Positions 45,337-47,872 of a stretch of 64,000 bases of DNA are shown piece after piece. This DNA is from Synechococcus sp. KORDI-49 (GTDB taxonomy: Bacteria > Cyanobacteriota > Cyanobacteriia > PCC-6307 > Cyanobiaceae): positions 65,163 to 129,162 of the forward strand of contig NZ_CP006270.1 of NCBI RefSeq assembly GCF_000737575.1, in the 5' to 3' direction. The translations under genes were made by a program, and so were the position numbers. Below the pieces are notes generated by a model. The model was not told the DNA's origin. It did no database searches and saw only the letters and a list, made by a program, of their open reading frames with translations. The number at the start of each line of letters is the position of its first letter. Within the stretch, counting starts at the first letter, position 1.

Positions 45337-46653
45337 GTGAATCCCCCGGTCCCGCTGGCGAAGCTTCTCCCGGTGCCCAAGGACCTCACCGGCAGGCTCG
45401 CTCTGGCTGGCGGTGGACTGTTTCTGGGGCAGTGGTTTCTCGGTGATCTGCTGCACGTCCCCGGTGGTGGCCTCGGCGTGCTGCTCACCGGCGCCGGGGT
45501 CTGGTGGCTCAGCCGCGGGTCGACGCCTCCCCGCTTTCAGGAACCCGCCTCCCTTCAGGGCTGGATCGCCCGCTGCAGGGAGGTTCTGGATCAGTTCGAA
45601 ACGCTGGAGCCCGACGGTGGTGTCCGACGTCAGCAGCTCGATGCGGTGGTCCAGCGTTCGGGTCCGCAACGGCTGGCGCTGGTGTGCGTCGATCCGGCGA
45701 CCTGCCCGCAGCAGGGGGAGCTCGAACAGGCCCTGGCCGGTGCGGCCCCGCTGACGTTGTCCGTGGCGCGTCCCCTGGCCAGTGCGGAGGGGGCCAGAAC
45801 CTGGCCGACGGTGCTTCAAGAGCAGGAGCTGATCCTGTTCAGCCTTGCGGCACCGCTGCTGGCGGAGGACCTTCTCTGGATCCAGCAGTTGCCGGAGGAT
45901 CAGCCGACGTGGCTGCTGGTGCGGAGCACGGCCGGGGAGAGTGATCGGCACTGCAGCGAGTCCCTGTTGGCTCAGCTCCCCGCCCGCTGGGTGGATCGCG
46001 TGCTGGTCCAGCGGCCGGATGGCCTGTTGCGGGATGTCCTTCAGCCCCTGCGCCGTCAGCTGGGAGCACCGATCCGCAACCTTCAGGACACCCGTCAGCG
46101 CCTGCTGAGGGGCCTGCATCAGCAGTGGCAGGCTGACCTTGAGCAGGTGCGTCGCCGTCGCTTCCAGGCGCTGCAGCAGCGGACCCAGTGGATCGTGGCG
46201 GCTTCCGTGCTGGCATCCCCCCTGCCCAGCCTTGATCTGCTGGCGGTGGCGGTGGCCAACGGTCTGATGCTGCGTGAGATGGGCACGTTGTGGGGCACGG
46301 ATCTGCAGCCGGATGTGTTGCGGGAGGCTGCCGGTCAGCTCGCCCGAGCCGCCCTCGCTCAGGGGGTGGTGGAGTGGAGCAGCCAGATGCTGCTGGGGCT
46401 GGCGAAGCTGGATGGCGGCAGCTGGCTGGTGGCGGGCACGATGCAGGCGATCAGCGCTGCCTACCTCACCCGCGTCGTGGGGCGTTCCATGGCGGACTGG
46501 CTGGCGTTGAATGCAGGGGTGGATGCACTGGATCTGGAGCGGCTCAAGCGGGAGGCGCCGGTTCTGGTGGCGAAGGCTGCCGAACAGGAACGATTGGACT
46601 GGGGAGGATTCATGAAGCAATCCCAGCAGTGGCTACTTCACGCAACTTCATGA
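45337..46653 (+). CDS. DUF697 membrane protein with degenerate GTPase region
   Basis: A 438-residue protein with an N-terminal hydrophobic segment (GGLGVLLTGAGVWWLS). The central region resembles a GTPase fold but has no GxxxxGKS loop; LALVCVDPATCPQQGELEQA stands where it would lie. The C-terminal DUF697 region has helices such as LDLLAVAVANGLMLREMGTL and LVAGTMQAISAAYLTRVVG. Relatives are membrane-associated GTPases of unknown role. The start is GTG at 45337. It ends 143 bases before psbA. Confidence 0.75.
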   Translation: MNPPVPLAKLLPVPKDLTGRLALAGGGLFLGQWFLGDLLHVPGGGLGVLLTGAGVWWLSRGSTPPRFQEPASLQGWIARCREVLDQFETLEPDGGVRRQQLDAVVQRSGPQRLALVCVDPATCPQQGELEQALAGAAPLTLSVARPLASAEGARTWPTVLQEQELILFSLAAPLLAEDLLWIQQLPEDQPTWLLVRSTAGESDRHCSESLLAQLPARWVDRVLVQRPDGLLRDVLQPLRRQLGAPIRNLQDTRQRLLRGLHQQWQADLEQVRRRRFQALQQRTQWIVAASVLASPLPSLDLLAVAVANGLMLREMGTLWGTDLQPDVLREAAGQLARAALAQGVVEWSSQMLLGLAKLDGGSWLVAGTMQAISAAYLTRVVGRSMADWLALNAGVDALDLERLKREAPVLVAKAAEQERLDWGGFMKQSQQWLLHATS

Positions 46654-46678
46654 CGCCTTCATGAAGTGCTTCATGAAG
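46646..46678. repeat. TTCATGA palindrome array upstream of psbA
   Basis: Two perfect 10-bp palindromes CTTCATGAAG lie at 46657-46666 and 46669-46678, with a third, imperfect copy (ACTTCATGAC) at 46646-46655. Spacing is 11-12 bases, about one helical turn. The array runs from the last codons of the DUF697 gene up to the putative psbA -35 box, a typical place for a dimeric regulator. Confidence 0.7.
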
Positions 46679-46707
46679 TTGAATTGAGACCTGCGTCGGA
46701 ATATTTA
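46679..46707 (+). promoter_or_regulatory. Putative psbA promoter
   Basis: TTGAAT (46679-46684) and TATTTA (46702-46707) are separated by 17 bases, a good sigma-70 fit. They start directly after the palindrome array and imply a transcript start near 46714 and a leader of about 80 bases. Confidence 0.55.
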
Positions 46708-46746
46708 ATCGCCGTGTAATAAGTGCGGCACTCCATAGGCTTTTCA

Positions 46747-46773
46747 CAACCTTCCCTTCTTTCAGGGGGGTTG
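46747..46773 (+). promoter_or_regulatory. psbA leader stem-loop
   Basis: CAACCTTCC (46747-46755) can pair with GGGGGGTTG (46765-46773) through nine pairs including two G-U. The stem lies 22 bases before the psbA ATG, and there is no clear Shine-Dalgarno sequence after it. A role in translation or stability is inference. Confidence 0.5.
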
Positions 46774-46795
46774 TTTCCGTCTTCATTTCTCTCTC

Positions 46796-47872
46796 ATGTC
46801 CACCGCCATCCGCAGCGGACGCCAGAGCAACTGGGAAGCCTTCTGTCAGTGGGTGACCGACACCAACAACCGCGTTTACGTGGGTTGGTTCGGCGTGCTG
46901 ATGATTCCCTGTCTTCTGGCAGCCACCATCTGCTTCATCATCGCCTTCATCGCCGCTCCCCCGGTTGATATCGACGGCATCCGCGAGCCTGTCGCCGGCT
47001 CCTTCCTCTACGGCAACAACATCATCTCCGGTGCTGTTGTTCCCTCCTCCAACGCCATCGGCCTGCACTTCTATCCCATCTGGGAAGCTGCATCCCTCGA
47101 TGAGTGGCTGTACAACGGCGGCCCTTATCAGCTGGTTTGTTTCCACTTCCTGATCGGCATCTCCGCCTACATGGGTCGCCAGTGGGAACTCTCCTACCGC
47201 CTGGGCATGCGCCCCTGGATCTGCGTGGCCTACAGCGCTCCGCTGTCAGCTGCCTTCGCTGTGTTCCTGGTCTACCCCTTCGGTCAGGGCTCCTTCTCCG
47301 ACGGCATGCCCCTGGGCATCTCCGGCACCTTCAACTTCATGTTGGTGTTCCAGGCCGAGCACAACATCTTGATGCACCCCTTCCACATGCTGGGCGTCGC
47401 AGGTGTGTTCGGTGGATCCCTGTTCTCCGCCATGCACGGCTCCCTGGTGACCTCCTCCCTGGTGCGTGAAACCACCGAGACCGAGTCCCAGAACTACGGC
47501 TACAAGTTCGGCCAAGAGGAAGAGACCTACAACATCGTGGCTGCCCACGGTTACTTCGGTCGCCTGATCTTCCAATACGCCTCCTTCAACAACAGCCGTA
47601 GCCTTCACTTCTTCCTGGCTGCCTGGCCTGTTGTCGGCATCTGGTTCACGTCCATGGGCGTGTCAACCATGGCCTTCAACCTGAACGGCTTCAACTTCAA
47701 CCAGTCCATCCTTGATGGTCAGGGCCGCGTTGTGAACACCTGGGCCGACATGATCAACCGTGCCGGCCTCGGCATGGAAGTGATGCACGAGCGCAACGCT
47801 CACAACTTCCCCCTCGACCTGGCAACTGTTGAGTCCACTCCTGTGGCTCTGCAGGCACCTGCCATCGGTTGA
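46796..47872 (+). CDS. psbA: Photosystem II D1 protein, D1:1 (Q130) form
   Basis: A 358-residue D1 reaction-centre protein. It binds the photosystem II chlorophylls, QB and the manganese cluster. Five helices are intact and [29 protein letters not shown] are typical. The C-terminal extension after the processing Ala is present. At the position equivalent to residue 130 it has Gln (YMGRQWELS), the mark of the low-light D1:1 type, not the Glu of D1:2. Cys and Ser at other spots (GISAYMG) also fit D1:1. Confidence 0.97.

Follow-up and report, generated by a model that had tools for sequence, protein, structure and literature searches.

The locus

The window, a stretch of 64,000 nucleotides from Synechococcus sp. 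KORDI-49, carries on its forward strand a gene for a 438-residue protein of the DUF697 family (45337..46653; Pfam PF05128, E = 1.8e-31), followed on the same strand by a psbA gene for a D1 protein of 358 residues (46796..47872; PF00124, E = 5e-88). Residue 130 of this D1 is Gln, which makes it a D1:1 type by the residue-130 rule quoted in PMC3441193. Two more psbA copies, of the D1:2 type, are found elsewhere in the same genome.

Between the two genes lie three copies of a 10-bp word, all read on the forward strand. Copies 2 (46657..46666) and 3 (46669..46678) are identical, CTTCATGAAG, and copy 1 (46646..46655), CTTCATGACG, differs from them at a single position and contains the TGA stop codon of the DUF697 gene. 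The copies start 11 and then 12 bp apart, and a TTGAAT hexamer begins at 46679, directly after copy 3. The core of each copy is a nearly palindromic TTCATGAA. A slight asymmetry is seen when 174 copies from 58 unique arrays are compared, in that position 4 is kept at a frequency of 0.85 and its mirror position 7 at 0.94.

The first-pass annotation had described a palindrome array with a spacing of 11 to 12 bases, and the array is real by the counts obtained here. With at most one mismatch, CTTCATGAAG occurs seven times in the window compared with 2.05 expected, a number reached in none of 100 shuffles, and the three-copy pattern with up to three mismatches has a single match in the window, compared with no match in 100 shuffles of it. 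A search of the complete genome, 2,585,813 bp long, places the exact 10-mer at seven sites. Two are the array copies; the other five are all found inside open frames with lengths from 186 to 890 codons. The array looks functional and is of an ordinary kind, that of a probable operator. As far as the searched literature goes, the motif itself appears to be new: we found no paper there that combines psbA, Synechococcus and CTTCATGAAG, and the matches listed for TTCATGAA with cyanobacteria include no title on psbA promoters.

Conservation of the array upstream of D1:1 genes

Seventeen arrays, 12 from the genus of the window and five from named contigs, served to build a profile, R1, so that recovery of those 17 is not independent evidence. 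The search with R1, at a cut-off of E = 0.001, covered 300 evenly drawn family genomes with a completeness of at least 80%. R1 matched 76 genomes in 8 of the 40 genera, and 224 genomes had no match. When the surroundings of all 76 matches were inspected, 72 proved to stand immediately before psbA; these belong to five genera (g1, g8, g24, g25 and g32). One more, from a sixth genus (G103, g20), follows the same upstream gene at the point where the contig ends, and that contig holds no psbA. The remaining three are away from psbA (G175 and G158 of g21, and G282 of g13). The three-copy arrays of the g21 genomes (loci L190 and L191 of G175 and G158) are flanked on one side by a gene that, by eye, resembles those for homoserine dehydrogenase and on the other by one that probably encodes a transporter lipoprotein.

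Within the genus of the window the array was detected in 24 of 34 genomes (E = 1e-5 or better), and of the 19 genomes with a completeness of 90% or more, 18 have it upstream of psbA. This presence in close relatives speaks for the regulator site of the earlier reading. The exception, G029, is 98% complete and has the orthologous psbA copy beside a decayed array, which indicates that the element is dispensable in that genome. Among the loci compared, carriers with strain names are WH 5701, UW140, BSA11S, HJ21-Hayes, SynAce01 and BS301-5m-G53. RCC307 and GFB01, which have close psbA relatives, lack the array.

For the comparisons below we used 75 arrays, namely the 72 linked to psbA and three (from G015, G016 and G026) recovered in the search of the genus; left out were the duplicate loci L214 and L215, G103 with no psbA on its contig, and G175, G158 and G282, whose arrays are not at psbA. 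The psbA genes behind these arrays encode Gln at residue 130 in 60 cases and Glu in three, and 12 are too incomplete to be assigned. The three Glu130 genes (L132, L189 and L194, from G030, G209 and G242) are richer in D1:2-type residues than the two Gln130 genes with which they were compared, yet have a D1:1-type N-terminus. To judge from their sequences, they look like products of gene conversion by a D1:2 gene in which the promoter array was retained.

Separating D1:1 from D1:2 upstream regions, as the annotation had proposed, bears out the association, as the 14 D1:2-type regions compared contain no comparable array (scores of 14 to 19 out of 30; 12 of 700 shuffles reach 18). Five of the 14 (L009, L118, L124, L125 and L128) score 18 to 19 and hold a degenerate pair of words, for example CTTCACAACA and CTTCATAAAG, at a distance of 11 bp. 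Such a pair may represent a related but weak site in a subset of D1:2 promoters.

A fixed distance between the array and a downstream box

The copies are spaced 11/12 in 56 of the 75 arrays and 11/11 in 15; the other four show different values because the scoring picked a neighbouring repeat. Measured from the end of copy 3, a TA[GAC]nnT box, a pattern that we chose after viewing the alignments, follows at exactly 57 bp in 67 of the 75 arrays (63 directly, and four that read 68 and are shifted by one 11-bp repeat). Eight arrays have no box in the interval searched: SynAce01, in which it is 58 bp away, and seven of g24, which lack the TA and, by eye, read TCATnn at that place. With no box chosen beforehand, TA is found at offset 57 in 100% of the arrays of g1, 70% of g24, 100% of g25 and 100% of g8 (after re-registration). 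The next best TA offset reaches 26% on average, and when the sequences are anchored at the ATG instead, peaks do not exceed 21%. On either side of this fixed interval distances vary: from −19 to +80 bp between the upstream stop codon and the array, and from 48 to 104 bp between the box and the ATG, apart from a single value of 10 that probably reflects a mis-set start codon.

The intervening spacer (46679..46735 on the forward strand of the window) is thus nearly constant in length, at 57 bp, and variable in sequence. Mean identity between genera is 0.795 for the array and 0.352 for the spacer, compared with 0.257 for shuffled spacers. That the geometry is locked despite a diverged spacer fits an operator better than a terminator or a constraint on codons.

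The last of these alternatives would have the array arise by chance or from the codons that end the upstream gene, recently duplicated. The upstream stop falls in copy 1 in all 24 g1 arrays, in line with such an origin, but the array lies up to 80 bp past the stop in other genera, and arrays of different genera share both the spacing and the 57-bp distance. We consider this origin extremely improbable.

Alternatively, the array could be a Rho-independent terminator of the DUF697 gene, its palindromes being kept by folding of the RNA. The position of the DUF697 stop codon inside copy 1 is what one would expect of a terminator, the array RNA is predicted to fold at −20.4 kcal/mol (z = −3.0), and at least six of the next eight bases are T in 22 of the 75 arrays, 16 of these in g1. 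However, the T-run is absent from 53 of the 75, including the window, where the stable stem is present and is followed by only four T in eight bases. In addition, when the stem between copy 1 and copy 3 was scored in the 58 unique arrays among the 71 of regular spacing, 94 broken cells and 11 one-sided changes were counted versus six two-sided changes, and the constant distance is the one to the psbA box, whereas that to the upstream stop varies. The pair counts and T-runs led us to reject a terminator or hairpin as the main explanation, which we regard as very unlikely, although termination may be a side effect in part of g1.

A second block of similarity was noticed within the spacer at offsets 13 to 18 after the array. 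It resembles TGATTC in g1, is TGACTC in g24 and reads TGCGTC at the equivalent place in the window (46692-46697). It is possibly another protein site, near −55.

The probable psbA promoter

In the window, the TA at offset 57 belongs to TAGGCT (46736..46741, forward strand), within TCCATAGGCTT. This is likely the −10 element, with transcription starting near 46748, as judged from the comparative geometry; a start at that position would give psbA a leader of 48 nt. The array would then occupy about −102 to −70. The best match to TTGACA at spacers of 16 to 19 bp from the expected box has four of six bases in 17 arrays, three in 44, two in 12 and one in two (75 arrays, counted with the four in shifted register and the eight with no box, unadjusted). 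A −35 element that is poor in all 75 (at most four of six) fits an activator-dependent promoter.

This assignment departs from that of the first-pass annotation, which had the array abut the −35 box of a promoter TTGAAT-17-TATTTA with a start at 46714, 34 bp upstream of the start proposed here. According to the corresponding hypothesis, an operator abutting that −35 box, with a start near 46714, represses D1:1 in high light. Both hexamers are indeed present, 17 bp apart within the 57-bp interval, and D1:1 of WH7803 is repressed at noon (PMC3441193). The hexamers are not conserved, however: in the 24 arrays of the genus the place of the first hexamer reads TTTTTT in 13 and that of the second TGTTGA in 11, and over all 75 arrays the second hexamer has T at position 6 in 19 and A at position 2 in 22. 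A strict sigma-70 scan of 46500-46900 returned no promoter, and the box singled out by its constant distance lies 34 bp further downstream. We therefore regard the abutting operator as quite unlikely; the letters of the proposed promoter are there, but abutment of the array on its −35 box is not supported.

At the 5′ end of the psbA mRNA, as placed here, a hairpin is predicted (46748..46772, forward strand), and it persists in g1 and g8 even where the sequence changes. All 18 g8 sequences pair at all five positions, with one pair varying among G-C, A-T and G-T, and in g1 between 21 and 24 of the 24 sequences pair at each of eight positions, with changes on both sides. The consensus fold was not obtained in g24 and only in part in g25. 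A terminator-like site called at 46751-46770 is this same hairpin. Rfam gave no match to 46400-47000 at E values up to 1.

Comparison with known regulatory sites

RpaB is the usual activator of psbA in low light. In PCC 7942 and 6803 it activates the low-light D1 gene from an HLR1 site at about −66 to −45 (PMC13421787), the HLR1 consensus being KTTACAWW-N2-KTTACAWW. One hypothesis is that the array is a variant of HLR1. The biological logic would be the same, and in both elements tandem copies spaced by roughly a helical turn precede a low-light psbA gene, HLR1 being a tandem site of an OmpR-family regulator (PMC13421787). On the other hand, the array consists of a different motif in three copies with a period of 11/12 instead of 10, and it would lie further upstream than the activating position of HLR1. 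Scored for HLR1, the 75 arrays average 9.68 of 16, as compared with 9.90 for shuffles, so that a match to the HLR1 motif was rejected; D1:1 promoters score 10.77 versus 10.92 when shuffled. It is the 14 D1:2 upstream regions that exceed their shuffles (12.2 versus 10.5), all on the same strand. An HLR1 variant thus seems unlikely.

Other light or redox regulators of cyanobacterial genes are PedR, with the site RWWTRGGYNNYY, and Rre1, with the site GTNCGGK (both as given in PMC13421787). Compared by eye, neither consensus word is evidently like CTTCATGAAG.

There is a formal resemblance to the boxes of OmpR/PhoB-family activators. The E. coli Pho box, the TorR boxes and the PmrA box are short tandem words with a period of about 11 bp upstream of the promoter that is activated. 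The array likewise consists of direct repeats about 11 bp apart, but differs in that each copy has a nearly palindromic core and that the second step is mostly 12 bp.

Arrays elsewhere and a candidate regulator

When the genomes of the genus were searched with the two-copy pattern and with the profile, no second place common to more than three genomes was found among the matches listed. Those of the scattered matches that were inspected lie in open frames or between genes and occur in one to three genomes each. Either the regulator is nearly dedicated to psbA, or it has further sites that have degenerated beyond the reach of these searches. A single target per genome would be unusual for a regulator; degenerate sites elsewhere may have escaped.

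Two kinds of locus are exceptions, with gene names assigned by eye. At L096, L097 and L098 (G016, G017 and G031), CTTCATGAAG is repeated in 14-bp steps between a murA-like gene and an acetylornithine-type aminotransferase-like gene. At L155 and L225 (G031 and G015), a pair of TTCATGAA words 11 bp apart is found near a radical-SAM-like gene.

OmpR-family genes were collected from 18 chosen genomes, and 40 gene regions were read among the matches listed. At least 10 of the array genomes compared have an OmpR-type protein (L277:242-922) whose receiver domain is odd; by eye, the domain seems devoid of the usual acidic residues. At E = 1e-38 or better the protein occurs in 166 of the 300 family genomes, and by a hand count in 69 of the 76 with the array versus 97 of the 224 others. 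It is absent from the array genomes G010, G056 (99% complete), G103, G260, G264, G267 and G282. Since co-occurrence is confounded by descent, this protein is a weak lead to the regulator.

Discussion

The array, its conservation, its near-exclusive location before psbA and its fixed distance to the TA[GAC]nnT box are observations. The explanation we favor, and consider probable on these sequence comparisons, is that the three CTTCATGAAG words form a putative operator upstream of the D1:1 promoter, on which a sequence-specific DNA-binding protein would dock as two or three adjacent units, most likely to activate. The units would sit on one face of the helix, centred at about −97, −86 and −74, and the bound protein would contact RNA polymerase, most likely aiding initiation at a promoter that has a TAnnnT −10 element and a poor −35 element. 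Protein binding, the start site and activation over repression are inferred.

That the array serves the D1:1 gene as a regulator site with several copies is very probable from its sequence and distribution. This part of the previously proposed cooperative regulator site holds up, with the site present upstream of D1:1 in 18 of 19 genomes; the repressor role is not favored by the position. At about −102 to −70 the array would not abut −35 and would be placed like an activator site, a position that speaks for an activator no less than for a repressor.

Garczarek (2008) is said to deal with the psbA genes of WH7803. The high-light repression of D1:1 that the annotation mentions agrees with what is known of this strain, in which D1:1 (SynWH7803_0784) is repressed at noon and peaks at the light-dark transition (PMC3441193). 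The operator would take part both in the low-light expression of D1:1 and in its shutdown in high light, the array being a possible mediator. We found no cis-element assigned to the D1:1 shutdown in the literature searched, which does not establish its absence from print.

The exchange of D1:1 for D1:2 is the response of these cyanobacteria to high light and UV. One could envision, as a tentative proposal to which we give somewhat less than even weight, that in picocyanobacteria the array is a dedicated D1:1 operator with about one target per genome, recognized by a regulator other than RpaB, and that the exchange is set by the CTTCATGAAG array on D1:1 together with an HLR1-like site on D1:2. 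The promoter proposed here lies elsewhere than where others would clone it, and a site of fixed geometry before psbA in five genera provides a ready probe for pulling out the regulator.
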